The notes under the pieces are model-generated. The model searched no databases. It saw only the letters and a program-made list of their open reading frames with translations, and had not been told where the DNA came from. From the NCBI GenBank assembly GCA_022376925.1, contig JAIOJX010000032.1:118211979-118275978 (forward strand): a stretch of 64,000 nucleotides of DNA, written 5' to 3'. The DNA is from Tragulus kanchil (Eukaryota; Chordata; Mammalia; Artiodactyla; Tragulidae). Positions 3,940-64,000 of the stretch are shown here, one piece after another. The first letter of the stretch is position 1. Each line of letters starts with the position of its first letter. A program made the position numbers and the translations under genes.

Positions 3940-5767
3940 CAAAAGAACTGTACACAGAAAATTACAAGACACTCATGTGAGAAATTAAAGAAGACTTAAA
4001 CAGATGGAGAGATATTCCATGTTCCTGGATCGGAAGAATCAATATTGTGAAAATGAACGTACTACCAAAGATCATCTACAGATTCAATGCAATACCTATT
4101 CAACTACCATTGACATTTTTCACAGAACTAGACCAAACAATAACACAGTTCATATGGAAACACAAAAGACCTCGAATAGCCAAAACAATCCTGAGAAAGA
4201 AAAACGGAGCTGGAGGAATCCGCCTCCCTAACTTCAGACTTGACTACAAAGCAGCAGTCATCAAGACAGTATGGTACTGGCACAAAAACAGAACTATAGA
4301 TCGATGGAACAAGATCGAGAACCCAGAGATAAACCCATGCACCTATGGGTACCTTATTTTTGACAAAGGAGGCGAAACTATAAAATGGGACAAAGATAGC
4401 CTCTTCAACAAGTGGTGCTGGGAAAATTGGACAGCTACATGCAAAAAAATGAAGTTGGAACATTCTCTGACACCATATACAAAGATCAACTCAAAATGGA
4501 TTAAAGACCTAAATGTAAGACCAGAAACCATCAAACTCTTAGAGGAGAATATAGGCAAAACCCTCAGGGACATCAATCAAAGCAAGATCTTCCCTGACCC
4601 ACCTACTAAAATAGCAGAACTGAAAAGAAAAGTGAACACGTGGGGCCTCATGAAACTTAAAAGCTTTTGTACAGCCAAAAGAAATTACAAAGAAGCTGAA
4701 CAGGCAGCCCACAGAGTGGGAGAAAATCATAGCAAATGAAATAACAGACAAAAAATTAATCTTCAAAATCTACAAGCAACTCAGACAACTCAGCACAGGA
4801 AAAACAAACAACCCAATCAAAAAATGGGAAAAAGATCTTAAAAGACGCCTCTCCAAAGAGGACATACAGATGGCCCAAAAGCACATGAAACGATGCTCAA
4901 CCTCGCTTATCATTAGAGAAATGCAAATTAAAACCACAATGAGATACCACCTCACACCCGTCAGAATGGCCATCATCCACAAATCAACAGACAATAAATG
5001 CTGGAGAGGGTGCGGAGAAAAGGGAACCCTCTTGCATTGCTAGTGGGAATGTAAACTGATACAACCTCTATGGAAGACAATATGGAGATTCCTTTAAAAA
5101 CTAAAAATAGAAGCACCCTATGACCCAGAAATCCCACTATTAGGCCTATATTCTGATGAAATCAAAAATGAAAGAGGCACCTGTACCTCAATGTTCATTG
5201 CAGCTCTCTATACAATAGCCAGAACATGGAAGCAACCTAGATGTCCATCAACGAATGAATGGATACAGAAGCTCTGGTACATATATACAATGGAATACTA
5301 CTCAACTGTTAAAAGAAATGCAGAAGACTCAGTCCTAATGAGGTGGCTAGCTTTAGAACCTATCATAAAAAGTGAAGTAAGTCAAAGAGAAAGACAAGTA
5401 CAGTATACTAACTCATATATATGGGATCTAGTAAGATGGTCATGATAACACATGCAGTGAACTCATGGAAAAACAGAGAATAGACATAAGGACATTGTGG
5501 AGACCGAACAGTGAGAGGGAGGCATAGAGGAAGTAACATCAAAACCTATACTGGCACGTGTGGAAAAGCTAGCTATGGTCATTGTGCTAAGGGAATAGAG
5601 TACCTACAATCACTTGGGGCGATGGTCTGGAGGGGTGGGAGGGGGGGAACTGGCTGCGGGGAGGGTCCAGGGATATGCATATGAATGATCTGGGAACATA
5701 CATGTTGGTGAACAACAAAACTCTGTAAAATCTTTAAAATAAAGAATAATAATAATAATTTTAAAAA
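3940..5767 (+). mobile_element. 5'-truncated L1 LINE with 20-bp TSD
   Basis: 3' portion of a ruminant L1. The frame at 4047-4739 encodes the C-terminal part of ORF2 downstream of the reverse-transcriptase core, recognisable by phrases such as '[15 protein letters not shown]' and '[21 protein letters not shown]'. After a stop near 4737, ORF2-like sequence continues in other frames to 5445 ('WNTIARTWKQP'-like region and 'YYSTVKRNA'), followed by a 3' UTR ending in an AATAAAG-type signal and an A/AAT-rich tail. The 20-bp repeat aagaagtgtgctatgtttct at 3920-3939 and 5768-5787 marks both ends, so insertion was by target-primed reverse transcription with 5' truncation. It has no 5' UTR, ORF1, endonuclease or RT core and cannot be autonomous. 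Confidence 0.92.
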
Positions 5768-7212
5768 AAGAAGTGTGCTATGTTTCTTAAAAATATTCAT
5801 AAAGAGAATTTAAAAAATTTTATACCCTGAATTGTTAACTGTAGTTATCTACATGTCTAAGGTAATGGGTGTTTGTTTGTGTCTATCCTAAAATGTTAAG
5901 AATAAAGATAAATTAATTTTGCAATAAAGAAAACAAGTAATAAACTGAGAGATATTTTCAATGCATGTAACAAAGAACGATATCCAACATATAATAAATG
6001 ACAAATTAGAAAAGGTAAACAATATCTCATATTCATTGAATACTTTACTTTTTTATGATAATGTACATGCAAATTAAAACCACAATGAGATACCACCTCA
6101 CACCCGTCAGAATGGCCATCATCCACAAATCAACAGACAATAAATGCTGGAGAGGGTGCGGAGAAAAGGGAACCCTCTTGCATTGCTAGTGGGAATGTAA
6201 ACTGATACAACCTCTATGGAAGACAATATGGAGATTCCTTTAAAAACTAAAAATAGAAGCACCCTATGACCCAGAAATCCCACTATTAGGCCTATATTCT
6301 GATGAAATCAAAAATGAAAGAGGCACCTGTACCTCAATGTTCATTGCAGCTCTCTATACAATAGCCAGAACATGGAAGCAACCTAGATGTCCATCAACGA
6401 ATGAATGGATACAGAAGCTCTGGTACATATATACAATGGAATACTACTCAACTGTTAAAAGAAATGCAGAAGACTCAGTCCTAATGAGGTGGCTAGCTTT
6501 AGAACCTATCATAAAAAGTGAAGTAAGTCAAAGAGAAAGACAAGTACAGTATACTAACTCATATATATGGGATCTAGTAAGATGGTCATGATAACACATG
6601 CAGTGAACTCATGGAAAAACAGAGAATAGACATAAGGACATTGTGGAGACCGAACAGTGAGAGGGAGGCATAGAGGAAGTAACATCAAAACCTATACTGG
6701 CACGTGTGGAAAAGCTAGCTATGGTCATTGTGCTAAGGGAATAGAGTACCTACAATCACTTGGGGCGATGGTCTGGAGGGGTGGGAGGGGGGGAACTGGC
6801 TGCGGGGAGGGTCCAGGGATATGCATATGAATGATCTGGGAACATACATGTTGGTGAACAACAAAACTCTGTAAAATCTTTAAAATAAAGAATAATAATA
6901 ATAATTTTAAAAAAAGAAGTGTGCTATGTTTCTTAAAAATATTCATAAAGAGAATTTAAAAAATTTTATACCCTGAATTGTTAACTGTAGTTATCTACAT
7001 GTCTAAGGTAATGGGTGTTTGTTTGTGTCTATCCTAAAATGTTAAGAATAAAGATAAATTAATTTTGCAATAAAGAAAACAAGTAATAAACTGAGAGATA
7101 TTTTCAATGCATGTAACAAAGAACGATATCCAACATATAATAAATGACAAATTAGAAAAGGTAAACAATATCTCATATTCATTGAATACTTTACTATTTA
7201 TTTATTATGATA
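4921..7212 (+). repeat. Tandem direct duplication D1, unit ~1146 bp
   Basis: Copy A 4921-6066 and copy B 6067-7212 are near-identical. The unit starts inside the L1 tail and includes the L1 3' TSD and about 280 bp of flank. The last ~15 bases of copy A are a garbled version of the end of copy B (about 7195-7212). Confidence 0.95.
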
Positions 7213-7229
7213 AATGCTTACATGTATTA

Positions 7230-7400
7230 TTTCATTTAATCCTTCTAACACCCCTCTGAGATCAATAGTATATTCTTCCCATTAACAGATGAGGAAACTG
7301 AGACTCACGGAAGTTAGGTAACTTGCCCGTCACCGCTGAGTTAGTGAATCATTAGCTGAGGCTAGAATATAGAAGTCTGACTCCAGGACTGACTTCACTA
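7230..7400 (-). mobile_element. MIR SINE
   Basis: Contains the reverse-orientation MIR core 'cagatgaggaaactgagactc' followed by diverged 'gttaggtaacttgcc'. An ancient mammalian SINE fossil with no coding potential. Confidence 0.8.
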
Positions 7401-7510
7401 CACAATACTACCAACAATCTTATGAAAAGATGTTAAATTCACCAGCAATGAGAGCACAATGAATAAAACAGGAAACTATGCCGCCACTGTCTATCTATGA
7501 GATAGAAATT

Positions 7511-7581
7511 TTAGAGTGAGAGAGAGATAGACATTATCAAGTGTTGATTTTAGAGTGAGAGAGATAGACATTATCAAGTTG
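7511..7581 (+). repeat. Short tandem duplication (~37 bp x2)
   Basis: The phrase 'ttttagagtgagaga...tagacattatcaag' occurs twice in direct succession; the copies differ by a GA unit. Slippage-type local repeat. Confidence 0.8.
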
Positions 7582-7589
7582 TAGATTGG

Positions 7590-8140
7590 TATAGTTACTT
7601 AGCAGAGTAATTTGGGAGCATCTAGTAAATTTGAACGTTCTAAACTGCCGCATGCACTGCTATCCATAAGTCCTGGAAAAAATACTTATATACGGAGAAA
7701 TTTCTAAAACATTGTGGCAAAATAGTTAGAATAGTGAAAAATTGAAAATAAGCAAATATTCAACAATAATTAGATAGGTGAAATGTGGTACATTAAAAAG
7801 CTTGTTAAAAGAGAAAGAGTTAAGCCTATAGGTATTCAGTAGATAGATGTCAGAAACATGATGCTGAGTTAAATATTTTCAGTGGTATTGATTTCCTGAT
7901 ATCTTTATAAAATTTTAAGTTCATACAAAAACAATTGTATGTATTGTTTTTGGGTACAATTACATGCAAGGGAAAGCATGCTGAATTGACATCAATATAA
8001 TGATAGTGGTAGATTCAGAGGAATTGGAAATAACCAAAGAGCAATTCAACTTTATAATTATTTAGTCTTCTTTTTAAAGAAAAAAAAAGACAAACCAAAT
8101 ATGGTAAAATATTAAAAAAATGTTTTGACTATACTCTTTT
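7590..8140 (+). mobile_element. Probable old L1-like fragment
   Basis: AT-rich sequence with phrases reminiscent of L1 3' regions ('aaatgtggtacatt'). No coding frame. The family is assigned by resemblance only. Confidence 0.3.
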
Positions 8141-8151
8141 AGTGAGATTTA

Positions 8152-8424
8152 GGGCTTCCCTGGTGGTCCAATGGTTGAAGAGTCTGCCCTGTGGTGCAGG
8201 GGGCACCAGTTCGATCCCTGGCCTGGGAGGATACAAGGTGCTGTGGAGCGGCTGCATGGGTATGTCCAATTGCAAGTCTATGCTCTGGAGCACATGCACC
8301 CAGAAGATGGTGCTCTGCAGTGAGAGAGGCCACTGCAGTGGGAGGCCCACACATTCCAAAGAGTAAAAGATGGACGATAATACATATTAAAACAAAAGAG
8401 TCATGATGGGGAAAAGAAAAAGAA
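8152..8424 (+). mobile_element. CHR-type SINE with 11-bp TSD
   Basis: Begins with the tRNA-like head 'gggcttccctggtggtcc' and contains an RNA polymerase III B-box-like 'ggttcgatccc'-type motif. It carries the same subfamily middle region as the element at 451-715. It ends in an A-rich tail. agtgagattta at 8141-8151 and 8425-8435 is the target-site duplication. Confidence 0.88.
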
Positions 8425-9007
8425 AGTGAGATTTAAAACGTAAAACCAGGTAAGAGTCAGTTTCACAACCTGGTCTGCCAGGTTATTAGCCATACTGTTC
8501 CACAGATGTGTCTAAAATAATTCTAGCTCAGATTTTATAAGCACCAAGTACAAAAAGCAATGCTAATATTACTTGTGAGTGCCTGTCAGACAAGACTGTT
8601 TCTGAATAATCTGTCTACTTTTTATGTCATCTTCACCACCCAATTCTTCACACTGTAGAAAGTATGCATGTTGAATGTCTGGCTATGATTATATTGAACT
8701 GATAAAATTTTACAGAGGTGAGGCAAGAACCCAGGAAAACCAATAAAACAATTGTCTTGGACCATAAGGACATGCTTGTTGTAATAGAAATCCTTTGCCT
8801 TCAATACTCAACTGAGTCCGTGGGCAGTGGCAGCTGAAAATTTTTAAGCCATTGGGGAGAAGTTCAGTGTAAGAGCGGCTTCACTCTTTCTGGATAATTT
8901 ATAGACATAGAAAGATTCAGACTGTTCTGAATTGATGTACTTTAATGGTACCATATGAGCCCCATCAAGTCAGCCCATGATTCTGGACAACTCTGAAACA
9001 TCCTGGA

Positions 9008-9376
9008 TCATTGAGCTGTCCCTCTGTGGCCAGGTACTTTCACAAAGGCCCTATTTACATCCTTATACTAGAGACTATAGATGAGTGGGTTGAGGAAGGC
9101 AGAGATGACATTGTAGAAAAGGGCCAGCTTTTTGTCCATTTCTGGGTCATACAAGGACCCAGGCCTCATGTACATGAGCATGACTAGTCTGTAGAACATG
9201 GTAACCACAGCGATGTGGGAAGCAGTCATGAAGAACTTGAGTCTCCCCTGGAGTGAACGGATGCTTAAGATGGAGGCAAAAATGCGAACACAAGAAACCA
9301 GGGAGAAACCTAAGATGAGGTCCCAGGAGTCGTTGAAGGATGTGTCTACACAAGCCAATGTCAAGTCTTTAACCAC
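9008..9376 (-). pseudogene. Olfactory receptor pseudogene, C-terminal third (copy 1)
   Basis: Minus-strand frame resembling family-2 ORs from just before TM5 to the C-terminus. It starts with 'DLTLACVDTSFND' (compare LKLACADTSLND in the intact ORs), then has a TM6 start 'TASHIAVVTMF' and TM7 'KKLALFYNVISAFLNPLIYSL'. The codon after YSL is TAG where intact paralogues have Arg of SLRNKDV. Frame-compatible 'YKDVNRAFVKVPG' follows to a second stop at 9008-9010. The conserved KAxSTC motif is degraded to KFFMTA, and TM1-TM4 are absent upstream. It is therefore a 5'-truncated non-functional OR, inverted relative to the three intact genes. Confidence 0.9.
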
Positions 9377-10114
9377 TAGCTGCCTGGACCCTCGCTAGCC
9401 CCACACTCTCCTTCACCATAACCCAGTGTCAGCTCATTGGCTTTACAGGCCCTAACCACATTCCAAAGAGTAAAAGATGGACGATAATACATATTAAAAC
9501 AAAAGAGTCATGATGGGGAAAAGAAAAAGAAAGTGAGATTTAAAACGTAAAACCAGGTAAGAGTCAGTTTCACAACCTGGTCTGCCAGGTTATTAGCCAT
9601 ACTGTTCCACAGATGTGTCTAAAATAATTCTAGCTCAGATTTTATAAGCACCAAGTACAAAAAGCAATGCTAATATTACTTGTGAGTGCCTGTCAGACAA
9701 GACTGTTTCTGAATAATCTGTCTACTTTTTATGTCATCTTCACCACCCAATTCTTCACACTGTAGAAAGTATGCATGTTGAATGTCTGGCTATGATTATA
9801 TTGAACTGATAAAATTTTACAGAGGTGAGGCAAGAACCCAGGAAAACCAATAAAACAATTGTCTTGGACCATAAGGACATGCTTGTTGTAATAGAAATCC
9901 TTTGCCTTCAATACTCAACTGAGTCCGTGGGCAGTGGCAGCTGAAAATTTTTAAGCCATTGGGGAGAAGTTCAGTGTAAGAGCGGCTTCACTCTTTCTGG
10001 ATAATTTATAGACATAGAAAGATTCAGACTGTTCTGAATTGATGTACTTTAATGGTACCATATGAGCCCCATCAAGTCAGCCCATGATTCTGGACAACTC
10101 TGAAACATCCTGGA

Positions 10115-10483
10115 TCATTGAGCTGTCCCTCTGTGGCCAGGTACTTTCACAAAGGCCCTATTTACATCCTTATACTAGAGACTATAGATGAGTGGGTTGA
10201 GGAAGGCAGAGATGACATTGTAGAAAAGGGCCAGCTTTTTGTCCATTTCTGGGTCATACAAGGACCCAGGCCTCATGTACATGAGCATGACTAGTCTGTA
10301 GAACATGGTAACCACAGCGATGTGGGAAGCAGTCATGAAGAACTTGAGTCTCCCCTGGAGTGAACGGATGCTTAAGATGGAGGCAAAAATGCGAACACAA
10401 GAAACCAGGGAGAAACCTAAGATGAGGTCCCAGGAGTCGTTGAAGGATGTGTCTACACAAGCCAATGTCAAGTCTTTAACCAC
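10115..10483 (-). pseudogene. Olfactory receptor pseudogene, C-terminal third (copy 2)
   Basis: Second copy of the 9008-9376 pseudogene inside duplication D2, identical at the protein level including the premature TAG after YSL. Upstream of the OR homology the frame runs on to 10612 through sequence that does not look like OR ('ECGAKRGSRQLV'). It probably represents the same genomic locus as copy 1. Confidence 0.9.
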
Positions 10484-10999
10484 TAGCTGCCTGGACCCTC
10501 GCTTAGCCCCACACTCTCCTTCACCATAACCCAGTGTCAGCTCATTGGCTTTACTGCTCAGACATTTGGTTTGGCAGCAGTATTTCTTTCTTAAAGGACT
10601 GGCAGAATTCACAAATAAATCTACCTAGGTCTAGAGTTTTCTCTGTGAAAAGATTTTGCTCAACATTCAATTAAAAAATAGATTTATGACTATTTACATC
10701 TTATATAAATATTCTTATATCTTTTCAAATGAGCTTTGGTAGTTAATACTTTTCAATGAATTTGGTCGTTTTATCTAAGTTTTCTAATTTTCGGAATAAA
10801 ATTCTTCATAATATTCCTTTATTAGTCTTTTAGCATCCCCTTATCTCTGGTGTTTCCTCACACACATGCACTGATCAGCCCTTATCTGAAGACTGGAGAG
10901 GGGTCTTCTGCAGACTTCAGGGCTCCCTCTCTGCACAGCTTTCCTGCCCTAGTGCTCTGCTCTGAGGTCTAGCCACCTGACCTCTGTCTTAGTCAGTTG

Positions 11000-11100
11000 A
11001 AACTGCTATAACAGAATTTCCCACAGACTGGGTGGCTTAAAAAACAAGTACTTATTTCTCACAGTTCTGGAAACTGCAAGTTGGAGATCAGGGTAATATG
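11000..11100. mobile_element. Ancient interspersed repeat (unassigned)
   Basis: The phrase 'gaaactgctataacag ... cacagactgggtggctt ... tctcacagttctgg' is a widely dispersed ancient mammalian repeat motif. I do not assign the family. A second copy lies at about 12100-12200 within D3. Confidence 0.5.
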
Positions 11101-11462
11101 CTTTTGAAAGGTAGAATACTTAATTCACTAGAATTTGCCTAGACCTACCAGGAAACCTAGCTAAAAGTCATTCAGATATACAAGAATTAATTTTTTCATA
11201 TGAGAAGAAGTCTTGAGGTAAGCAGCTTCGTGTATTAATTCACAGATGGATATGGAAATGAAAGGGCCCCTGCAATTTTTTGAGAATTTTCCTCAGGGTC
11301 TCAAGACAGGTGCCCATTTTCACATATGACATCTTGTTCGTGGTGAGAGAAAAGAGGTTTGAGGGAAGGGGTTTGTATCACAGTCACTCTAGTCCCTTTT
11401 GTAGGAAATCATTTCACTAACATTCATAAGCTGAGTTCCTCTCAAGTCTTCCTGGAGTGCGA

Positions 11463-11583
11463 AACGGATGCTTAAGATGGAGGCAAAAATGCGAACACAA
11501 GAAACCAGGGAGAAACCTAAGATGAGGTCCCAGGAGTCGTTGAAGGATGTGTCTACACAAGCCAATGTCAAGTCTTTAACCAC
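11463..11583 (-). pseudogene. Olfactory receptor pseudogene, short third copy
   Basis: Only the TM5 region ('LTLACVDTSFNDSWDLILGFSLVSCVRIFASILSIR') remains. It is cut at the D3 junction and fused to unrelated sequence. It is a by-product of the D3 duplication, not an independent pseudogene. Confidence 0.9.
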
Positions 11584-12562
11584 TAGCTGCCTGGACCCTC
11601 GCTAGCCCCACTCTCTCCCTCACCACATCCCAGTGTCAGCTCATTGGCTTTACTGCTCAGACATTTGGTTTGGCAGCAGTATTTCTTTCTTAAAGGACTG
11701 GCAGAATTCACAAATAAATCTACCTAGGTCTAGAGTTTTCTCTGTGAAAAGATTTTGCTCAACATTCAATTAAAAAATAGATTTATGACTATTTACATCT
11801 TATATAAATATTCTTATATCTTTTCAAATGAGCTTTGGTAGTTAATACTTTTCAATGAATTTGGTCGTTTTATCTAAGTTTTCTAATTTTCGGAATAAAA
11901 TTCTTCATAATATTCCTTTATTAGTCTTTTAGCATCCCCTTATCTCTGGTGTTTCCTCACACACATGCACTGATCAGCCCTTATCTGAAGACTGGAGAGG
12001 GGTCTTCTGCAGACTTCAGGGCTCCCTCTCTGCACAGCTTTCCTGCCCTAGTGCTCTGCTCTGAGGTCTAGCCACCTGACCTCTGTCTTAGTCAGTTGAA
12101 ACTGCTATAACAGAATTTCCCACAGACTGGGTGGCTTAAAAAACAAGTACTTATTTCTCACAGTTCTGGAAACTGCAAGTTGGAGATCAGGGTAATATGC
12201 TTTTGAAAGGTAGAATACTTAATTCACTAGAATTTGCCTAGACCTACCAGGAAACCTAGCTAAAAGTCATTCAGATATACAAGAATTAATTTTTTCATAT
12301 GAGAAGAAGTCTTGAGGTAAGCAGCTTCGTGTATTAATTCACAGATGGATATGGAAATGAAAGGGCCCCTGCAATTTTTTGAGAATTTTCCTCAGGGTCT
12401 CAAGACAGGTGCCCATTTTCACATATGACATCTTGTTCGTGGTGAGAGAAAAGAGGTTTGAGGGAAGGGGTTTGTATCACAGTCACTCTAGTCCCTTTTT
12501 GTAGGAAATCATTTCACTAACATTCATAAGCTGAGTTCCTCTCAAGTCTTCCTGGAGTGGAC

Positions 12563-14510: not shown

Positions 14511-16682
14511 ATCTGTGAGGTGTCACTGAGGACTCAGGGAGAGATCTGACACATGGAGTACATTAATGCAAGAGCTTGCTTGTTCAGGACTTGGACCCAG
14601 CACTACCCTGAGCTCAGCATCAGCCACAAGCAGACTCAAGCCCCTTCTAGACACAGGGCCTGAGGAGGACTGGGTGAGCCCTCCTTGACTGGGAGATGAA
14701 GACCAGGGCTGGGTCAGGGTCACACTCTGAAGGCAGCATCTGCCTGTAATGTCTGGGGAGGCTGAATGTTTCTGGCATCTATGCAAGGTGTGCCCTGGCA
14801 GGAGTGGGTAGGTGAAGGAAGCAACTGCCCCAGTCTTCCTGCCAGGGGCTCCTGAGGGCCACCACTGCTCCCTGGGGCCAGGCTCCATGGGCTCTCTGAC
14901 CCATGAATTCTGTTCTCAGTTTTCAGTCTTTTTCAGTCTAGTGATACTGCTCAACTCTTTCTCCTCTTCCCACACCAAGAGATTCAGAACACTTGATGCC
15001 AACTCTCCCAATCTTCCTCCTTCCACTGATTTGTGCTCTGATTTTCCCCAGGGAACGCATGACCTCTAGACACAAGTAATTTTCTCTGCATCTCTGAGGA
15101 ACAGGAACAAAAAGAGTTGGGCTAGGGAGAATGTCTGTATTTTTTTCCTTTCTCTTCTTTTTCATGGCTTCTCAATAACTCCTGGCCTATAGATCATTCA
15201 ATAGGCACTTACCGGGTCTTACCATGTGTCAGGCTCTGTATTAAGTAATGAAGTTACTGTGGGAAACAATAAAATTATGCATGATGAAGTCAAGCTTCTC
15301 ATCGGGGGATATGTCTGACCTACAGTGCTTCCAAATTATCTTAGGCTTGCCTGTAGTTAAGACAGAACCCAGAGAGCTCTCCGGCTGGCAGCTTGACATT
15401 CTGGGTCTTAGTCTTTGTGACAAAATCCCACTGTGACTTGGGATACATCTCCTTTTATGTCTCCCCTCTGCACCTGATATCTCAGGCCTCTGTGATGCTC
15501 TGTTTCAATCCTTGCAGCATCTAGAGATCTCTCTAAAGAGTCTGATCTGCCTTGGAGTCTGGTGAACAGAACTGAGCCTAGCTTTAAGGAACCCAAATCT
15601 GTGAGGTGTCACTGAGGACTCAGGGAGAGATCTGACACATGGAGTACATTAATGCAAGAGCTTGCTTGTTCAGGACTTGGACCCAGCACTACCCTGAGCT
15701 CAGCATCAGCCACAAGCAGACTCAAGCCCCTTCTAGACACAGGGCCTGAGGAGGACTGGGTGAGCCCTCCTTGACTGGGAGATGAAGACCAGGGCTGGGT
15801 CAGGGTCACACTCTGAAGGCAGCATCTGCCTGTAATGTCTGGGGAGGCTGAATGTTTCTGGCATCTATGCAAGGTGTGCCCTGGCAGGAGTGGGTAGGTG
15901 AAGGAAGCAACTGCCCCAGTTTTCCCTGCCAGGGGCTCCTGAGGGCCACCACTGCTCCCTGGGGCCAGGCTCCATGGGCTCTCTGACCCATGAATTCTGT
16001 TCTCAGTTTTCAGTCTTTTTCAGTCTAGTGATACTGCTCAACTCTTTCTCCTCTTCCCACACCAAGAGATTCAGAACACTTGATGCCAACTCTCCCAATC
16101 TTCCTCCTTCCACTGATTTGTGCTCTGATTTTCCCCAGGGAACGCATGACCTCTAGACACAAGTAATTTTCTCTGCATCTCTGAGGAACAGGAACAAAAA
16201 GAGTTGGGCTAGGGAGAATGTCTGTATTTTTTTCCTTTCTCTTCTTTTTCATGGCTTCTCAATAACTCCTGGCCTATAGATCATTCAATAGGCACTTACC
16301 GGGTCTTACCATGTGTCAGGCTCTGTATTAAGTAATGAAGTTACTGTGGGAAACAATAAAATTATGCATGATGAAGTCAAGCTTCTCATCGGGGGATATG
16401 TCTGACCTACAGTGCTTCCAAATTATCTTAGGCTTGCCTGTAGTTAAGACAGAACCCAGAGAGCTCTCCGGCTGGCAGCTTGACATTCTGGGTCTTAGTC
16501 TTTGTGACAAAATCCCACTGTGACTTGGGATACATCTCCTTTTTATGTCTCCTCTCTGCACCTGATATCTCAGGCCTCTGTGATGCTCTGTTTCAATCCT
16601 TGCAGCATCTAGAGATCTCTCTAAAGAGTCTGATCTGCCTTGGAGTCTGGTGAACAGAACTGAGCCTAGCTTTAAGGAGTGA
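14511..16682 (+). repeat. Tandem direct duplication D4, unit ~1086 bp
   Basis: Copy A 14511-15596 and copy B 15597-16682. The unit is mostly non-repetitive DNA. Differences are few, for example 'cttcctgcc' versus 'tttccctgcc' and a T-run length change near 16541. 'cccaaa' occurs both before copy A and at the junction. Confidence 0.95.
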
Positions 16683-18534: not shown

Positions 18535-18684
18535 CGGGCGCATGTGCTCCAGAGCTCCGGCTCAGTAATTGGACATATCGGTCCAGCAGCTCTGCAGCAC
18601 GTGGGATCTTCCCAGGCCAAGGATTGAACCGGCGCCCCTTGCACTGCAAGGTGGTGTCCTTATCTACTGGACCACCAGGGAAGC
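18358..18684 (-). mobile_element. CHR-type SINE, full length
   Basis: Complete reverse SINE from the A/T-rich tail to the reversed head 'ccaccagggaagcc'. ctatggtttttct is present on both flanks (about 18345-18358 and 18688-18700), giving the target-site duplication. Confidence 0.88.
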
Positions 18685-18759
18685 CTGGCTATGGTTTTTC
18701 TACCCAAGAGAAATCTTATTGCTGCTGAAGAATGAGGGAGATTCAGTTTCTCCCCTATA

Positions 18760-18890
18760 TATCCTCTCTGAGCCTCAGAGTTCCCATTGGTAAGATGAAG
18801 GTAATAATCCCCATCCTTTACTTGTCAGAGTCATCATGAGACTCAGAGAGAAAACGAATGTCAAAGTATATCATAAGGTATTGTATTATA
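18760..18890 (+). mobile_element. MIR-like fragment
   Basis: 'ctctgagcctcagagttcccattggtaagatg' followed by 'gtaataatcccc' resembles the forward MIR core. A second copy lies at about 19852-19980 within D6. Confidence 0.6.
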
Positions 18891-19470: not shown

Positions 19471-19517
19471 TGGTTTCTCTCCTTCAAGACCACGTTCCCC
19501 AAACACATAATACTTTA

Positions 19518-23495: not shown

Positions 23496-24434
23496 ATGCA
23501 AGAGCCTAACCAGTCCTCTGTGGCTGAATTCATCCTCCTGGGCTTCTCCTTCAGTCCCATGACCACTCCTCTGTTCTTCTCAGCCTTCCTGACAACCTAC
23601 CTATTGATCATTCTGGGCAATGGCTTTATCATCATCCTCATCTTCCTGGACTCCCGCCTCCACACACCCATGTACTTCTTCATTGTCACCCTTTCCATGT
23701 TAGATTTGGGCTATACCACCACAACTATGCCCCAGATGTTGGCACATCTGGCCAGTCAGAAGAAGACCATCTCTTTTGCCAGCTGTGTGGCCCAAATGTA
23801 CATTTTCTTGGTACTAGGCATCACTGAGTCCTGGCTCTTTGCCATCATGTCCATAGACAGGTATGTGGCCATCTGTCACCCACTCAGGTACAAGGTCATC
23901 ATGAGCCCATGGCTGTGTGGGGTAATGGTCTTATTCTGTGGACTCTGGGGTATCATCTCTGCTCTTGTCTATACTGTTTTTGCCATGCGTCTGCCCTACT
24001 GTGGTCCCAACAAGATCAACCACTTCTTCTGTGAACTCCCCGCTATCTTAAAGCTGGCTTGTGCAGACACCTCAGTCAATGACCAGGTAGACTTCATTCT
24101 TGGATTTAGTGTCATCCTGGTTCCACTTTCCCTCATCCTTGTCATTTACATCAACATCATAATTGCCGTCTTGAGGATTCGTTCAGCCCAGGGGCGGCTG
24201 AAGGCCTGCTCCACCTGTGCCTCACACATCACTGTGGTCACCATGTTCTGTGTGCCAGCCATGGTCATGTATATGAAGCCTGGCTCAGAGGCCTCCCCAG
24301 AAGAGGACAAGAAGCTTGCCCTGTTCTACAATGTCATCTCTGCCTTCCTCAACCCCATCATCTACAGCCTTAGGAACAAAGATGTGAAGAGGGCTTTCCT
24401 CAAGGTGACGGGCTGGGCCAGGGCCCCAGAATGA
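23496..24434 (+). CDS. Olfactory receptor, family 2-like (OR-A)
   Basis: Intact 312-residue class II odorant receptor, a plasma-membrane GPCR expected to couple to Golf in olfactory cilia. Visible marks: N-terminal glycosylation site N5-Q-S; TM1 GN at 41-42; LHTPMY at 55-60; C97 and C179 for the conserved loop disulfide; MSIDRYVAIC at 118-127 (family norm MAYDRYVAIC, so A and Y are replaced by S and I); KACSTCASH at 236-244; NPIIYSLRN at 286-294. The short C-terminal tail ends GWARAPE. The usual SY of TM5 is IY at 217-218. Length is typical. The start is the first Met before the NQSSVAEFILLGF segment and lies 12 nt after a splice-acceptor-like AG. It is most like the genes at 45.4 and 60.8 kb. 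An identical copy follows at 24573. The exact ligand and orthologue cannot be told. Confidence 0.96.
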   Translation: MQEPNQSSVAEFILLGFSFSPMTTPLFFSAFLTTYLLIILGNGFIIILIFLDSRLHTPMYFFIVTLSMLDLGYTTTTMPQMLAHLASQKKTISFASCVAQMYIFLVLGITESWLFAIMSIDRYVAICHPLRYKVIMSPWLCGVMVLFCGLWGIISALVYTVFAMRLPYCGPNKINHFFCELPAILKLACADTSVNDQVDFILGFSVILVPLSLILVIYINIIIAVLRIRSAQGRLKACSTCASHITVVTMFCVPAMVMYMKPGSEASPEEDKKLALFYNVISAFLNPIIYSLRNKDVKRAFLKVTGWARAPE

Positions 24435-24572: not shown

Positions 24573-25511
24573 ATGCAAGAGCCTAACCAGTCCTCTGTGG
24601 CTGAATTCATCCTCCTGGGCTTCTCCTTCAGTCCCATGACCACTCCTCTGTTCTTCTCAGCCTTCCTGACAACCTACCTATTGATCATTCTGGGCAATGG
24701 CTTTATCATCATCCTCATCTTCCTGGACTCCCGCCTCCACACACCCATGTACTTCTTCATTGTCACCCTTTCCATGTTAGATTTGGGCTATACCACCACA
24801 ACTATGCCCCAGATGTTGGCACATCTGGCCAGTCAGAAGAAGACCATCTCTTTTGCCAGCTGTGTGGCCCAAATGTACATTTTCTTGGTACTAGGCATCA
24901 CTGAGTCCTGGCTCTTTGCCATCATGTCCATAGACAGGTATGTGGCCATCTGTCACCCACTCAGGTACAAGGTCATCATGAGCCCATGGCTGTGTGGGGT
25001 AATGGTCTTATTCTGTGGACTCTGGGGTATCATCTCTGCTCTTGTCTATACTGTTTTTGCCATGCGTCTGCCCTACTGTGGTCCCAACAAGATCAACCAC
25101 TTCTTCTGTGAACTCCCCGCTATCTTAAAGCTGGCTTGTGCAGACACCTCAGTCAATGACCAGGTAGACTTCATTCTTGGATTTAGTGTCATCCTGGTTC
25201 CACTTTCCCTCATCCTTGTCATTTACATCAACATCATAATTGCCGTCTTGAGGATTCGTTCAGCCCAGGGGCGGCTGAAGGCCTGCTCCACCTGTGCCTC
25301 ACACATCACTGTGGTCACCATGTTCTGTGTGCCAGCCATGGTCATGTATATGAAGCCTGGCTCAGAGGCCTCCCCAGAAGAGGACAAGAAGCTTGCCCTG
25401 TTCTACAATGTCATCTCTGCCTTCCTCAACCCCATCATCTACAGCCTTAGGAACAAAGATGTGAAGAGGGCTTTCCTCAAGGTGACGGGCTGGGCCAGGG
25501 CCCCAGAATGA
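24573..25511 (+). CDS. Olfactory receptor, second copy of OR-A
   Basis: Encodes the same 312 residues as the gene at 23496 with no amino-acid difference. It has only 138 bp between the first stop codon and this ATG, and the same 5' flank restarting ~40 bp upstream. OR paralogues normally diverge and lie several kb apart, so this is either a very recent tandem duplicate or, more likely given the 18 similar duplications of unrelated content in the window, the same gene represented twice. All receptor motifs are intact, so it would be functional if real. It would share no separate promoter region with upstream exons except through OR-A. Confidence 0.9.
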   Translation: MQEPNQSSVAEFILLGFSFSPMTTPLFFSAFLTTYLLIILGNGFIIILIFLDSRLHTPMYFFIVTLSMLDLGYTTTTMPQMLAHLASQKKTISFASCVAQMYIFLVLGITESWLFAIMSIDRYVAICHPLRYKVIMSPWLCGVMVLFCGLWGIISALVYTVFAMRLPYCGPNKINHFFCELPAILKLACADTSVNDQVDFILGFSVILVPLSLILVIYINIIIAVLRIRSAQGRLKACSTCASHITVVTMFCVPAMVMYMKPGSEASPEEDKKLALFYNVISAFLNPIIYSLRNKDVKRAFLKVTGWARAPE

Positions 25512-26454: not shown

Positions 26455-26640
26455 TGTGTGCCAGCCATGGTCATGTATATGAAGCCTGGCTCAGAGGCCT
26501 CCCCAGAAGAGGACAAGAAGCTTGCCCTGTTCTACAATGTCATCTCTGCCTTCCTCAACCCCATCATCTACAGCCTTAGGAACAAAGATGTGAAGAGGGC
26601 TTTCCTCAAGGTGACGGGCTGGGCCAGGGCCCCAGAATGA
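26455..26640 (+). pseudogene. OR 3' fragment (third copy of OR-A end)
   Basis: Encodes only the last ~61 residues of OR-A (from CVPAMVMYMKPG through GWARAPE), identical in sequence. It is preceded by unrelated in-frame residues 'MSKGVNSGTI'. Cut by the D9 junction, it has no TM1-TM5 and is non-functional. Confidence 0.93.
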
Positions 26641-47315: not shown

Positions 47316-47344
47316 TTTAATTCTTATAACAACTCCAGAGGTAG

Positions 47345-47500: not shown

Positions 47501-47509
47501 AAATCTCAA

Positions 47510-48186: not shown

Positions 48187-49295
48187 TAATGGGGCCTACT
48201 CTCTAGTTGAGGTGAGCAGGTTTCCTGTTGCGGTGACTTCTCCTGTTGTGGCACATGGGCTCAATAGCTGCGGCTCTGAGGCTCTAAAGCAGAGGCTCAA
48301 TAGTTGTGACTGATGGGCTTAGTTGCTCTGCAGCAGGTGGCATCTTCCCAGATCAGGGATCGAACCTGTGTCTCCTGCATTGGCAGGTGAACTCTTTACC
48401 ACTAAACTACCAAGGAAGCCCTATTTTAATTCTTATAACAACTCCAGAGGTAGGTATTATTATTCTCTTCATACAGACAAAAAAAAAAAAAAAAAAAAAC
48501 CTGAGGCACAAGATTAATAAGTTGCTGAACACCATCCAACAAGAAAGTAACACAATTGAGATTTGAATCCAGGTTCCAGGGCCCAAGCTCTGGTCTATTG
48601 TATGATACCAAATCTCAAGTAGTCAGTAGAGATTTTTGAGAGTCAACTGAGATAGTCAACTGAGATGGAATACTATTAAGGAAAATTGAAAATATACAGG
48701 ATTATGATTCTAAGTCACAACTACAGGGTAAGATCCATGAAGTAGGAGCTCTATTGACTACTTCAAATTTTCCTCACCAGCACTTCATAGCCTAAGCAAC
48801 TAGCAGTGGAATAGTAACTTCTCAATAAGTCCTTGTTGAGTGACTTCCTAGTCCTTCTCCATCACTGGCCTGCCCACCTCCCCAGTTCTTCTTTTAGCTC
48901 TTCTTTCATGGAGCCTTCTCTTATTTCCATTGTACACCACTCCCCCACCATGGCTTCCAGCAATCCAGACTTTTATTTACAAATACAGCATCTTTGTGCC
49001 AGTTGCCACGACTGACTTATCCTTAAATTTCCTCTGCCACCAGAGAGAACAAATGTAAGAGCTCTGGACTTTAGTCTTGACTTAATTTGTTGAGATCTTG
49101 GGAAAACCAACTAATCTGTCTGGAAATTAGGCCCCCTCTGTAAAATGGAGTCTGATATGGAGATAATGACTGTAGCAGACTCTGGCTATACCATAACATT
49201 ATGTTTAAGCTCAAGTAGGAATAGGCTTTAAAGCATAAATAATTGTATAAATTATTATTAGAGAGTATTATTAGAGCCTTCAAAATCAGATACCT

Positions 49296-52310: not shown

Positions 52311-52589
52311 GTGCTCGTAGAATTCCTCTTATCTGTTGAATTGATGAGTTTAGCACTCAAGGGAAATCTCTAACAATAGGAATCTGAGTGTCCTGAGCAC
52401 TTCTGTAGAAACCTAAGGCATTGGAGGAGATGGGATCGCCCAGAGGGAATATACGAAAAGAGAAAAGAACTACAAACAGAATTCTGTCCAATACTACAGG
52501 TATCTCATCCAATACTGCACCATCAGTTAAGTGACAGAACCAAGGTTTGATCACAGGTCTTCTGACTTTTCAGGGCTTTGCTCCTATGT

Positions 52590-52700
52590 TGGAAAAGGAA
52601 ATGACAACCCACTCCAGTCTTCTTGCCTTGAGAATCCCATGGCAGAGGAACCTGGCAGGCTACTGTCCATGGGATCACAAGAGTTGGACAAAACTTAGAA
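52590..52700 (+). mobile_element. Bov-tA SINE 3' part (copy 1)
   Basis: 'ggaaatgacaacccactccag' through 'gatcacaagagttggac'. The head is missing. Second copy 53666-53776. Confidence 0.88.
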
Positions 52701-52839
52701 ACTAATCACCATTATCCCCAGGTGTAATATTTATCAGCTGTTGATTCTGAGCCAGGGTCCATAAAGGATCTCTTGGGGCATATGCCCTTCTCTACAGGAA
52801 GTTAGATCTGTGGTGTTTTTTGTTGTTGTTTTTTGTTTT

Positions 52840-53108
52840 ATTTTTAAATTTTGGGCTCTTTTATTGGTTCTTCATTTATTTATTTTCATCCATCTAAATT
52901 CTTTCGTTTGTGTGGGCCTCCCATCACAGTGGCCTCTGTGGCCACAGAACACCGGCTCTGGGCACATGCGCTCCAGAGTGCTGGCTCGTAATTGGACACA
53001 CCAGTCCAGCTGCTCCGCTGCATATGGGATCTTCCCGTGCCAGGGTTTGAACCAGCGCCCCTTGCATTATAAGCAGACTCTTTACCCACTGGACCACCAG
53101 GCAAGCCC
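52840..53108 (-). mobile_element. CHR-type SINE (copy 1)
   Basis: Reverse SINE of the 451-715 subfamily, ending in 'ggaccaccaggcaagccc'. Second copy about 53915-54178. The long minus-strand frames here are antisense SINE translation, not genes. Confidence 0.9.
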
Positions 53109-54256
53109 AAGTTACAGAGATTTTGAGGCTCTAAGATGCCTGAATATAATGCAGGCCAGTACCCAGCCAGGTGTGATGGAGACAGAGTCCTGAGTGGGGG
53201 ATGAGTGCTGAGTGTAGCCCTTTCCTGTCCCCCATACCCCCCACCAAAACCATGGACTTTATGGTCCATGGAAACCTTTCCTGGCTTGCCTGCCCAGCTG
53301 CTCTCCTGGTATTTCTCAGTCCGTGCACTTGCTCTAATTGATGTTCCTATACCTAGCCCTTCAGACTGTGAAGCTAGTAGGGAGAGGCCTGTGGAGAATT
53401 CCTCTTATCTGTTGAATTGATGAGTTTAGCACTCAAGGGAAATCTCTAACAATAGGAATCTGAGTGTCCTGAGCACTTCTGTAGAAACCTAAGGCATTGG
53501 AGGAGATGGGATCGCCCAGAGGGAATATACGAAAAGAGAAAAGAACTACAAACAGAATTCTGTCCAATACTACAGGTATCTCATCCAATACTGCACCATC
53601 AGTTAAGTGACAGAACCAAGGTTTGATCACAGGTCTTCTGACTTTTCAGGGCTTTGCTCCTATGTTGGAAAAGGAAATGACAACCCACTCCAGTCTTCTT
53701 GCCTTGAGAATCCCATGGCAGAGGAACCTGGCAGGCTACTGTCCATGGGATCACAAGAGTTGGACAAAACTTAGAAACTAATCACCATTATCCCCAGGTG
53801 TAATATTTATCAGCTGTTGATTCTGAGCCAGGGTCCATAAAGGATCTCTTGGGGCATATGCCCTTCTCTACAGGAAGTTAGATCTGTGGTGTTGTTGTTT
53901 TTTGTTTTATTTTTAAATTTTGGGCTCTTTTATTGGTTCTTCATTTATTTATTTTCATCCATCTAAATTCTTTCGTTTGTGTGGGCCTCCCATCACAGTG
54001 GCCTCTGTGGCCACAGAACACCGGCTCTGGGCACATGCGCTCCAGAGTGCTGGCTCGTAATTGGACACACCAGTCCAGCTGCTCCGCTGCATATGGGATC
54101 TTCCCGTGCCAGGGTTTGAACCAGCGCCCCTTGCATTATAAGCAGACTCTTTACCCACTGGACCACCAGGCAAGCCCAAGTTACAGAGATTTTGAGGCTC
54201 TAAGATGCCTGAATATAATGCAGGCCAGTACCCAGCCAGGTGTGATGGAGACAGAG

Positions 54257-56708
54257 TCCTGAGTGGGGGATGAGTGCTGAGTGTAGCCCTTTCCTGTCCC
54301 CCATACCCCCCACCAAAACCATGGACTTTATGGTCCATGGAAACCTTTCCTGGCTTGCCTGCCCAGCTGCTCTCCTGGTATTTCTCAGTCCGTGCACTTG
54401 CTCTAATTGATGTTCCTATACCTAGCCCTTCAGACTGTGAAGCATAGTAGGGAGAGGCCTGTGGAGAACACGAAGTATTGGGATGGTATGACCAAGGACT
54501 TGAGTGTTTGGCCTTGAGCACCACATTGGGAGGGTGAAAAGTGAGCTTGAGGCTTGGGAGGGCTGCTGTGGGGCCTGGAGAACCTCTCAGAGGCTCATTA
54601 AAAAAGCTGTCTGATTTGTTCTCCCTGAGGAGGGTCAGGAGCAGAATACAGAAGGAGGAGAAGAATAAAAGAGAACCCAGCAGGCCCCAGCACATCCCTC
54701 CCTGAACACCCAGGTAAGGAGAGGAGGGCCAGAGGCAGGGGCCTGAACCACACTGCTCCACTCCTGGGCAAGCTGAGCTCCTCATATGTCTGACTGAGCG
54801 CCTGCCTGCCTCCACCTCCTTTCATCCACATTAGGCACTCCAGGGCTGTTGCCTGATCTCTCTTCTCCTCTGTTCACTGATTTCTCTGTACAGTGATCTA
54901 TGTATCTCTTTGCCTTTCTCTTTCCTTCTTTATTTGTTTTCTGGAAGAGTTCTTCAGCAGAGGGAGAGAAAAGTGGAAGGACATAAAGGCTGTTGCTCTT
55001 GGAACTGAGGCATTTGACTCTCCTCTGAAGCCCACTGAGGATACAGGACAAGACACTGGTAAGGATAGATAAAGGTATTGAGGACAAGCTATAGATGTTG
55101 GAACCTAGAATGAGGCATTAGAAGTGGGAAGAGCCGTGACGCACTCATTTGGGAAGGGGAGAGATGCAACTGCTTTTAAACGAGGTATTGGTATCCTAGC
55201 ATTCCTGTCTGGTACTGCCTTAGGCCAGGCCTTGGGATGGATGGAAAGGAAGCTCGTAGTAGGATTGGAGCTCCCCATTCATTTGCTTCTAGTCCCTCTG
55301 CTCTTTCTTCAATTCTGCACCATATTCTGGTCACTGAGTATGCAGCAAACACTAGGAGTGGGATACTTACTGAAAGGCTACTACAGTGGTCCAGGCGTCA
55401 GGCATCAGCTCCAGATGAAGCTGAAAGAAGGAGAGCACAGGAGCCTGGCAAAGTTCAGTTATAACTCTTTCAGGTGAGGGAATCCTGAGTGGGGGATGAG
55501 TGCTGAGTGTAGCCCTTTCCTGTCCCCCATACCCCCCACCAAAACCATGGACTTTATGGTCCATGGAAACCTTTCCTGGCTTGCCTGCCCAGCTGCTCTC
55601 CTGGTATTTCTCAGTCCGTGCACTTGCTCTAATTGATGTTCCTATACCTAGCCCTTCAGACTGTGAAGCATAGTAGGGAGAGGCCTGTGGAGAACACGAA
55701 GTATTGGGATGGTATGACCAAGGACTTGAGTGTTTGGCCTTGAGCACCACATTGGGAGGGTGAAAAGTGAGCTTGAGGCTTGGGAGGGCTGCTGTGGGGC
55801 CTGGAGAACCTCTCAGAGGCTCATTAAAAAAGCTGTCTGATTTGTTCTCCCTGAGGAGGGTCAGGAGCAGAATACAGAAGGAGGAGAAGAATAAAAGAGA
55901 ACCCAGCAGGCCCCCAGCACATCCCTCCCTGAACACCCAGGTAAGGAGAGGAGGGCCAGAGGCAGGGGCCTGAACCACACTGCTCCACTCCTGGGCAAGC
56001 TGAGCTCCTCATATGTCTGACTGAGCGCCTGCCTGCCTCCACCTCCTTTCATCCACATTAGGCACTCCAGGGCTGTTGCCTGATCTCTCTTCTCCTCTGT
56101 TCACTGATTTCTCTGTACAGTGATCTATGTATCTCTTTGCCTTTCTCTTTCCTTCTTTATTTGTTTTCTGGAAGAGTTCTTCAGCAGAGGGAGAGAAAAG
56201 TGGAAGGACATAAAGGCTGTTGCTCTTGGAACTGAGGCATTTGACTCTCCTCTGAAGCCCACTGAGGATACAGGACAAGACACTGGTAAGGATAGATAAA
56301 GGTATTGAGGACAAGCTATAGATGTTGGAACCTAGAATGAGGCATTAGAAGTGGGAAGAGCCGTGACGCACTCATTTGGGAAGGGGAGAGATGCAACTGC
56401 TTTTAAACGAGGTATTGGTATCCTAGCATTCCTGTCTGGTACTGCCTTAGGCCAGGCCTTGGGATGGATGGAAAGGAAGCTCGTAGTAGGATTGGAGCTC
56501 CCCATTCATTTGCTTCTAGTCCCTCTGCTCTTTCTTCAATTCTGCACCATATTCTGGTCACTGAGTATGCAGCAAACACTAGGAGTGGGATACTTACTGA
56601 AAGGCTACTACAGTGGTCCAGGCGTCAGGCATCAGCTCCAGATGAAGCTGAAAGAAGGAGAGCACAGGAGCCTGGCAAAGTTCAGTTATAACTCTTTCAG
56701 ATAGAGTG
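54257..56708 (+). repeat. Tandem direct duplication D18, unit ~1226 bp
   Basis: Copy A 54257-55482 and copy B 55483-56708. One C insertion (ggcccc versus ggccccc near 55912) is the main difference. The 54257-54470 block is present three times through overlap with D17. Confidence 0.95.
54480..55480. other. Non-repetitive content of D18, no gene seen
   Basis: GC-moderate unique sequence. The plus frame at 55124-55477 (117 codons) and the minus frames have no family I recognise and are duplicated only because of D18. The segment near 55380 ('acagtggtccaggc') resembles an ancient repeat. Confidence 0.45.
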
Positions 56709-61742: not shown

Positions 61743-61806
61743 GGCTACTGGAACACAGAAGGCTACAACTCGACTAAAACCATAAGTTCTGTGGTCCTTC
61801 CACCCC

Positions 61807-64000
61807 GTTCTCTTCTGTCATCCAATGGGCAGGCAAGAATCACTGTCTGTTAGGGAAGATGATATGTGAAAAGTAGGTACCTGGGTAGAACATGATGATG
61901 GTTCCACTGGGCTATCCTCAAACATCAAGAGACTCAGATACAGACAACATGCCAGAGAAGGACCCATGTCTAACTCATTTCTGTTTCTCCAGGGCCAAGC
62001 AAAGAATCTAGCAAGTCCAAGTATCATTAACATTTGCTGGTTGAGTAAGTGGGCTTATGAGGACTTGTTACTGTTGTTCAGTTGTTCACTCATGCCCAAC
62101 TCTTTGCGACCCCGTGGACTATCACCCACAAGACTCCTCCTCTGTCAATGGGGATTCTCCAGACAAGAACACTGGAGTGGGTTGCCATGCCGTCTTCCAT
62201 GGGATCTTCCCTACCCAGGATAGAACCCAGGTCTCCTGCATTGCAGGTAGGTTCTTCACCATCACAGACACCAGTGAACTCCCTGTGATCCCATGGACTG
62301 GACTTAGTAAGTCAACTCTAGGTAGATGGGACAAGATGACTCATAGGACCCAGATCAATGACTTTATCTCAATCTAGAGCATGAATAGATCTAAAGAAAC
62401 ATAGTTTCAGGGTAAAGGAAAGATGACTTTAGGAATGGGATTCAAGGATTAGTGATTGTCCATCCAACATTTCTGTGGGGTGTCTCAGTACACAGATGAA
62501 ATGTCATCCAAAGCGAATTGTAGTGGGTTAGAGCTCATGCTTCACACCAAACCATCACTCTGTAAGATTACTGTGAGAAGTTAATGTAGATAATATTTTC
62601 AAAACAATGCTTGATACATTGCATGCTTTATGTAAACATTGCCATTCTTTTTAATATAATTGACTTCTTTTCCCTAACACCTCAATTAAAAAGCAAACAA
62701 CTCAGACCATTTCCACTCAGAAAGGAGTCATTCTACTCTCTGGAAGGGGATAGTTAACAATACAACTGAAAATGTTGGCATTTGTGTATGCCTCATTCTG
62801 GTGTGGATATAGTGAGTTTGGATCTGTCACCATGAACTTAAGAACTCTAAATCAGCAAGACTATAGCAAAATGGATATCAAACAAAGAGGTTGTGATTGC
62901 AAACATGCTCCTCAAAGCCATTGATATTCGCACAGGGTTCTCTTCTGTCATCCAATGGGCAGGCAAGAATCACTGTCTGTTAGGGAAGATGATATGTGAA
63001 AAGTAGGTACCTGGGTAGAACATGATGATGGTTCCACTGGGCTATCCTCAAACATCAAGAGACTCAGATACAGACAACATGCCAGAGAAGGACCCATGTC
63101 TAACTCATTTCTGTTTCTCCAGGGCCAAGCAAAGAATCTAGCAAGTCCAAGTATCATTAACATTTGCTGGTTGAGTAAGTGGGCTTATGAGGACTTGTTA
63201 CTGTTGTTCAGTTGTTCACTCATGCCCAACTCTTTGCGACCCCGTGGACTATCACCCACAAGACTCCTCCTCTGTCAATGGGGATTCTCCAGGCAAGAAT
63301 ACTGGAGTGGGTTGCCATGCCGTCTTCCATGGGATCTTCCCTACCCAGGGATAGAACCCAGGTCTCCTGCATTGCAGGTAGGTTCTTCACCATCACAGAC
63401 ACCAGTGAACTCCCTGTGATCCCATGGACTGGACTTAGTAAGTCAACTCTAGGTAGATGGGACAAGATGACTCATAGGACCCAGATCAATGACTTTATCT
63501 CAATCTAGAGCATGAATAGATCTAAAGAAACATAGTTTCAGGGTAAAGGAAAGATGACTTTAGGAATGGGATTCAAGGATTAGTGATTGTCCATCCAACA
63601 TTTCTGTGGGGTGTCTCAGTACACAGATGAAATGTCATCCAAAGCGAATTGTAGTGGGTTAGAGCTCATGCTTCACACCAAACCATCACTCTGTAAGATT
63701 ACTGTGAGAAGTTAATGTAGATAATATTTTCAAAACAATGCTTGATACATTGCATGCTTTATGTAAACATTGCCATTCTTTTTAATATAATTGACTTCTT
63801 TTCCCTAACACCTCAATTAAAAAGCAAACAACTCAGACCATTTCCACTCAGAAAGGAGTCATTCTACTCTCTGGAAGGGGATAGTTAACAATACAACTGA
63901 AAATGTTGGCATTTGTGTATGCCTCATTCTGGTGTGGATATAGTGAGTTTGGATCTGTCACCATGAACTTAAGAACTCTAAATCAGCAAGACTATAGCAA
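61807..64000 (+). repeat. Tandem direct duplication D19, unit ~1130 bp (runs off window)
   Basis: Copy A 61807-62936; copy B starts at 62937 and continues past the window end. Differences lie inside the Bov-tA portion (agacaagaacac versus aggcaagaatac; ccaggata versus ccagggata). gttc is shared at the breakpoint. Confidence 0.94.
62071..62285 (-). mobile_element. Bov-tA-type SINE (copy 1)
   Basis: Reverse element: 'gttgttcagttgttcactcatg', 'caactctttgcgaccccgtgg', 'gggttgccatgccgtcttcc' and 'tcctgcattgcaggtaggttc'. Second copy about 63201-63416. Confidence 0.9.

Follow-up and report, generated by a model that had tools for sequence, protein, structure and literature searches.

Nineteen fixed-length direct duplications in a mammalian contig, a probable assembly artefact of unmerged consensus blocks

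In a genome assembly, the sequence of a single locus can be written two times with no haplotype differences between the copies, as when an overlap is left unmerged, and this homotype false duplication, as outlined in the relevant passages of two papers (PMC8081667, PMC9516828), appears to be the closest known kind to the structure described here. In its boundary type, the duplication is about as long as a read and a gap lies between the copies after scaffolding, according to excerpts of PMC8081667. The same excerpts trace a FALCON homotype duplication in the hummingbird (Extended Data Fig. 6) to a bug in the assembler algorithm, as would likewise apply here, but the program is a different one and no chain of fixed-length units is described in them.

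The window analyzed is the whole 64-kb stretch of Tragulus kanchil DNA, and it contains 19 duplications in a row, without gaps and with a fixed length of ~1.1 kb. Its letters are A, C, G, and T only, and because there is not a single N, the chain does not belong to the boundary sub-type and seems to work like the wider homotype kind. The two copies probably represent one locus, and differences specific to a haplotype are absent, with units 5, 6, and 11 as the exception. From the sequence, we consider the window most likely to be an assembly artefact, in which overlapping consensus blocks were concatenated instead of merged, and not a product of biology (probability about 0.96).

Geometry of the chain

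All 19 junctions listed in the original prediction were recovered, with copy B starting at the first base past each of them, and copies A and B are identical at 98–100% of aligned bases. The units are as follows (junction; copy A; copy B), where OR denotes olfactory receptor.

Unit 1 (+): 6066; 4921–6066; 6067–7213; encloses the 3′ end of L1 ORF2
Unit 2 (+): 9456; 8350–9456; 9457–10554; OR pseudogene fragment inside, minus strand
Unit 3 (+): 11462; 10363–11462; 11463–12559; initial 201 bp in three copies
Unit 4 (+): 15596; 14511–15596; 15597–16678
Unit 5 (+): 17438; 16343–17438; 17439–18518; initial 340 bp in three copies
Unit 6 (+): 19517; 18426–19517; 19518–20608; initial 109 bp in three copies
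Unit 7 (+): 21536; 20415–21536; 21537–22626; initial 195 bp in three copies
Unit 8 (+): 24533; 23457–24533; 24534–25596; encloses a whole OR gene
Unit 9 (+): 26454; 25326–26454; 26455–27572; initial 285 bp in three copies
Unit 10 (+): 30046; 28962–30046; 30047–31116
Unit 11 (+): 33113; 32052–33113; 33114–34176; differences 98–190 from copy start
Unit 12 (+): 35109; 33947–35109; 35110–36240; initial 229 bp in three copies
Unit 13 (+): 38458; 37357–38458; 38459–39565
Unit 14 (+): 40330; 39116–40330; 40331–41545; initial 445 bp in three copies
Unit 15 (+): 42877; 41779–42877; 42878–43976
Unit 16 (+): 48186; 47078–48186; 48187–49295
Unit 17 (+): 53394; 52319–53394; 53395–54464; single 7-b indel mid-unit
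Unit 18 (+): 55482; 54257–55482; 55483–56700; initial 214 bp in three copies
Unit 19 (+): 62936; 61807–62936; 62937–64000; copy B clipped at the window end

Unit length, taken as the junction minus the start of copy A, ranges from 1062 to 1226 with a mean of 1117 and an sd of 44 (CV 4%, n = 19), and the tight clustering claimed for it holds, with 15 of the 19 units falling within 1076–1146. This length stays constant while GC runs from 0.36 to 0.50 and unit content varies from L1 to an OR gene. Bases shared to the left of the copy starts number zero at all 19 units, which we excluded as evidence because the copy starts were set by the onset of the match and the value carries no weight.

Across the 64-kb window there are 53 exact direct matches of at least 60 b. 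Thirty-two lie at unit offsets, all inside the 19 units; the three-copy stretches account for 9 more as two-step matches, and 12 come from one 104-bp minisatellite and its unit 15 copy, leaving 0 of 53 unaccounted for; a search of the window for exact inverted matches of at least 60 b returned none. The surplus sequence amounts to ~21.2 of the 64 kb, about one third.

Each unit had been said to be repeated exactly once, and this is so except at 8 of the 18 neighboring unit pairs, where the units overlap and 109–445 bp is therefore present in triplicate. The three-copy stretches coincide with the 8 blocks that are shorter than their two units; seven of them are present as exact matches, and the eighth (J5/6) is a 91% match. 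With the extra copies collapsed, 8 of the 18 junction spacings are short (657–987), the number first given, but the claim that none is below 0.75 kb fails for two, at 657 and 746. If junctions were placed uniformly, a minimum of at least 657 would have P = 0.0015, and 8 or more spacings within 650–1000, a band picked post hoc, would have P = 0.0002.

Overlapping blocks and candidate programs

We propose that 20 consecutive consensus blocks of a long-read mammalian assembly were written end to end, with each block ending in the same ~1.1 kb with which its successor begins. This shared ~1.1 kb would be a graph vertex over which the consensus of both neighbors was computed; the aligning and merging of this vertex would have failed or been skipped, so that every vertex is written two times. 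Two vertices with an overlap of a few hundred bases would leave their common part in triplicate. The animal's genome would then hold one copy per place, and the source data would be long reads. There are 18 complete blocks between junctions, and they span 1.8–7.5 kb with a minimum of 1842 b.

The program was probably a wtdbg/Redbean-type assembler that uses 1024-bp vertices and makes its consensus edge by edge. In such programs, adjacent edges share a vertex and are then joined, and the joint is normally merged; the wtdbg2 defaults are a 256-b bin, a 256-b allowed vertex overlap, and a step minimum of 768. The shared length is near the vertex size, exceeding 1024 b in 19 of 19 units whatever their content, and none of the 18 complete blocks falls below 1792 b, which is two vertices minus the 256-b overlap. 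Block steps reach at least 768 in 16 of 18 cases, the exceptions being the spacings of 657 and 746, and periodicity near 256 b is not significant (best period 272, P = 0.15, n = 18). The joints in the window would be unmerged, whereas these programs normally merge them. Redbean cuts reads into 1024-bp segments that are merged as vertices, as stated in an excerpt of PMC7730629, and a separate program, wtpoa-cns, computes the consensus, as stated in an excerpt of PMC9915519. Among the matches listed, titles and abstract starts contain no report of an unmerged-vertex failure, and the excerpts of a dog assembly made with wtdbg2 (PMC8228171) and of a sika deer assembly made with wtdbg 1.2.8 (PMC10372904) report no such failure.

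A different assembly step, such as gap filling, the joining of contigs during scaffolding, or a tool that polishes or chunks with overlaps of ~1.1 kb, is possible as the source, though we regard it as clearly less likely than the wtdbg/Redbean type. The sequence reveals overlapping blocks and not the program that wrote them, periodicity near 256 b lacks significance, and homotype duplications have been described as arising from overlap at the boundaries of contigs. Excerpts of PMC8081667, however, have scaffolding leave a gap between the copies, which the window lacks, and blocks of 1.8–7.5 kb seem rather small for contigs and uneven for chunks of fixed size.

Differences between copies concentrate at block ends

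Over the 19 units, copies A and B show 120 differences, of which the last fifth of the unit holds 69 and the 50–80% part holds 0 (per tenth: 13, 27, 5, 5, 1, 0, 0, 0, 13, 56). The differences come clustered and the figure of 120 therefore overstates their independence; counted as 31 clusters, they number 2, 3, 3, 2, 1, 0, 0, 0, 3, and 17 per tenth. When the last 70 b is set aside, 15 clusters are left, of which the middle third has 3 and the 0.4–0.8 part has 1 (P = 0.003 for this band, which was picked post hoc). Nineteen of the differences are homopolymer indels, and 15 of these are losses in the block-terminal copy: the last fifth of the unit contains 11, at 10 of which the block-end copy has the loss, and the first 0.4 contains 8, at 5 of which the block-start copy has it. 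With identical interiors and errors at block ends both clear, the earlier suggestion of ~1-kb blocks whose shared ends were concatenated is supported.

Homopolymer errors do not explain the substitution clusters of units 5, 6, and 11. Those of units 5 and 6 sit in a repeat with further copies in the window, where copy A of unit 5 is divergent over its final 140 b and the two copies of unit 6 are unlike over their first ~250 b; for the region of the unit 11 cluster, no further copy was found in the 64-kb window.

The 8 stretches present in triplicate have 72 differing columns, and the odd copy stands at a block end in 42 of them, at a block start in 26, and mid-block in 4; when adjacent columns are merged into 25 events, the corresponding counts are 12, 9, and 4. 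A block-terminal copy is thus odd in 68 of 72 columns and in 21 of 25 events, with the event count being the weaker of the two. By events, the test leans modestly toward error at block ends, since 4 of 25 have the mid-block copy as the odd one, as against a neutral third. The sole difference in the J6/7 stretch is mid-block, and in 2 of the 4 mid-block-odd events the mid-block copy retains a base that both terminal copies lack. In the three-copy part of unit 12, copy B is short of 14 + 1 b present in both of the others.

Real tandem duplication, by a process that acted very recently on 19 neighboring ~1.1-kb stretches, either in the germline or within the cells that were sampled, would account for copies that are adjacent, in direct orientation, and nearly identical, and sequential events would yield the identical three-copy arrangement, so that this arrangement alone does not exclude it. 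Genuine tandem duplications should also have identical ends up to the junction and differences spread over the unit, and neither was found. In 12 of 18 testable units (unit 19, clipped by the window end, was left out), the first copy has at least one difference in its final 17 b, at the block end, while the other 6 match cleanly to the junction as real duplication would have it; the differences sit at block ends and not throughout the units. With a unit length that ignores content and a mid-block copy that is so seldom odd, real duplication becomes very improbable.

Heterotype false duplication, a described assembly error in which an individual's two alleles are placed one after another (excerpts of PMC8081667 and PMC9516828), would fit substitution clusters confined to a few units (5, 6, and 11). 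Alleles should, however, give scattered single-base variants and no single fixed length, and against them stand the empty 50–80% part of all 19 units and the complete identity, with zero differences, of both copies in units 14 and 16; we hold this explanation to be highly improbable. A real process that measures ~1.1 kb and duplicates in place, recently and repeatedly, at unrelated sites along about 59 kb is extremely improbable; to our knowledge no mechanism produces fixed-length duplications at unrelated sites, and the concentration of differences at the ends would require a separate cause. Transposon insertion was rejected for the unrelated contents of the units, and a satellite array for the units being mutually unrelated.

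Gene content and consequences

The effect of the duplications on gene content is seen at one OR gene.

23496..24434, plus strand: intact olfactory receptor gene coding for 312 aa, the earlier one of an identical pair
24573..25511, plus strand: second copy of the gene, 100% identity over 939 nt
26455..26637, plus strand: third piece, the final 61 codons of the same gene as 23496..24434

The two identical genes exist because unit 8 encloses the whole gene, and the false 3′ fragment exists because copy B of unit 9 begins within it; an 86-aa frame at this third piece matches Pfam 7tm_4 below threshold (17 of 27 bits). Different OR genes in the window are 74–77% identical to one another, as against 100% for the duplicated pair, and the chain turns three different intact OR genes into four, plus three fragments. 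The content labels first given for OR and L1 stand, whereas that for BovB was not confirmed, with seven pieces of the suspected region matching no Pfam family. Two L1 pieces match L1 ORF2p chains in the PDB, and a Pfam search of the same two pieces gave no family. A search of viral contigs for relatives from outside the window, to serve as single-copy yardsticks for an L1 piece and a suspected BovB piece, returned none.

As biology, the chain of duplications has no importance, and its value is as a warning. Homotype false duplication can pass for gene gain, as excerpts of PMC8081667 and PMC9516828 point out, and the surplus third of the window and its false OR copies would lead to wrong results in gene counts, duplication surveys, and copy-number studies. 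Scanning for this signature, direct duplications of a fixed ~1.1 kb whose copies differ at block ends, takes no reads and might reveal the same fault in other assemblies.

Overlapping blocks and their spacing

The original prediction placed 19 junctions in the window, and at all 19 we find that the ~1.1 kb before the junction recurs after it in direct orientation. The units so doubled are 1062–1226 b long (mean 1117, SD 44, n = 19). The doubling itself is borne out, but the claim that each unit is repeated exactly once fails at eight places, where 109–445 b occur three times because the block there (the sequence between successive junctions) is shorter than its two units. Of the 53 exact direct matches of at least 60 b in the window, 32 sit at unit offsets, 9 are two-step matches within three-copy stretches, and the remaining 12 belong to a 104-b minisatellite and the copy of it in unit 15. 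No exact inverted match of at least 60 b occurs in the window, and no exact direct match of at least 60 b lies upstream of 4921.

The simplest description of the window is a chain of blocks (1–6066, 6067–9456, 9457–11462, and so on), each of which opens by repeating the final ~1.1 kb of its predecessor. The 18 blocks complete within the window are 1842–7454 b long. Removal of one copy per unit leaves about 42.8 kb and a surplus of about 21.2 kb, a figure that counts the 19th unit in full although the window end cuts it. After this collapse, the steps between successive unit starts are 657–6324 b, with 8 of 18 falling within 657–987 b. Among 200,000 simulations with uniform placement, a minimum step this large arose in 0.15%, and as many steps within 650–1000 b in 0.02%, this band having been picked after seeing the data.

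Differences between copies

If the units were real tandem duplications, any differences between their copies would fall at any point in the unit, and thus the distribution of differences separates artefact from biology. Counted by tenth of the unit, the 120 copy–copy differences number 13, 27, 5, 5, 1, 0, 0, 0, 13, and 56; they gather where the later block begins and where the earlier one ends. The same pattern is seen when they are grouped into 31 clusters (2, 3, 3, 2, 1, 0, 0, 0, 3, and 17). With clusters in the last 70 b left out, 15 remain, 3 of them in the middle third, and this thinner set still leans toward the unit ends. The block's last 17 b contain differences in 12 of 18 testable units and none in the other 6; the 19th unit, whose second copy is cut by the window end, was left out. 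Homopolymer indels (n = 19) point the same way: 11 lie in the last fifth, 10 of these being losses in the block-end copy, and 8 lie in the first 0.4 of the unit, 5 of these being losses in the block-start copy. Noisy long reads typically give homopolymer losses where a consensus thins out at its ends.

Where neighboring units overlap, three copies are present, and so the mid-block copy can be weighed against the two copies at block ends. In 72 differing columns the odd copy is the block-end one in 42, the block-start one in 26, and the middle one in 4. These columns are often not independent (a single gap in unit 12 accounts for 15 of them), and merging them into 25 events gives 12, 9, and 4, a modest excess of terminal odd copies. 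In the three-copy stretch shared by units 6 and 7 the sole difference is mid-block; there, and at one place in the stretch shared by units 2 and 3, a base is kept in the middle copy and absent from both terminal copies, which fits losses at block ends.

Clustered substitutions set apart unit 5 (12), unit 6 (19), and unit 11 (14). The unit 5 and 6 clusters sit in a repeat with other window copies at about 72–86% identity, and consensus or polishing with reads from those copies would explain them. The unit 11 copies (32140–32260 vs. 33202–33320) are ~12% different over ~120 b; no other copy of this piece was found in the window, and the one candidate explanation for its divergence is a fault of local consensus or polishing. 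Close to its beginning, the second copy of unit 12 is missing 14 + 1 b that both other copies have; the 14-b gap, in the stretch 35110–35175, is flanked by short direct repeats. Unit 17 has a 7-b indel at mid-unit.

We conclude, with a probability of about 0.96, that the duplications in the window are an assembly artefact.

Candidate program and known errors

The assembler wtdbg/Redbean works in 256-b bins and builds its consensus edge by edge; neighboring edges have a vertex in common and are afterwards aligned and joined, and the default allows vertices a 256-b overlap. Under this scheme overlaps should slightly exceed 1 kb and blocks should be at least 1792 b, and this is what we observe for 19 of 19 overlaps and 18 of 18 blocks. 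Steps should also be at least 768 b, as 16 of 18 are, and perhaps periodic near 256 b; periodicity near 256 b in the steps was not significant (best period 272, P = 0.15). A wtdbg-type program is a plausible and fairly probable cause. According to a passage in PMC9915519, a second program, wtpoa-cns, computes the Redbean-type consensus.

In homotype false duplication, as outlined in PMC8081667, sequence of the same locus is present twice, through under-collapsing or at a contig boundary, with one example due to a FALCON bug; false duplication errors creating false gene gains are the subject of PMC9516828. Unlike such cases, as far as the accounts in these two papers go, the window has no gap between copies and has a fixed unit length.

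Genes and repeats

3981–5442: fragmented, truncated L1 ORF2, collinear with residues 791–1264 of L1 ORF2p (PDB 8uw3 chain A)
9029–9364, minus strand: olfactory receptor pseudogene fragment, about 61–63% protein identity to the intact ones
10136–10471 and, partial, 11458–11571: repeats of this fragment made by duplicated units
23496, 45373, and 60795, same strand: three different intact olfactory receptor genes, 74–77% identical in DNA

The presence of L1 and olfactory receptor genes suggests mammalian DNA; the repeat names in the original prediction would suggest a ruminant. In block 1, the L1 piece at 3981 aligns to residues 791–1025 and that at 5098 to residues 1164–1264, spaced as expected, and the latter recurs at 6244–6588 within the copy made by junction 6066. 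This collinearity shows that the sequence at that junction follows its natural order once the extra copy is taken out of the window; L1 order by itself does not separate artefact from biology. A 104-bp minisatellite of about three copies (42376–42690) looks genuine, and it is shown twice (second 43475–43789) because it lies inside unit 15.

The duplication of unit 2 and of the first part of unit 3 multiplies the minus-strand pseudogene fragment. An entire olfactory receptor gene (Pfam 7tm_4) lies within unit 8; its two copies are identical over 939 nt, against 74–77% among the window's three different intact receptor genes. The second copy of unit 9 begins inside this unit 8 gene, giving a third piece of 61 codons. 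The intact genes at 23496, 45373, and 60795 form a small receptor cluster.
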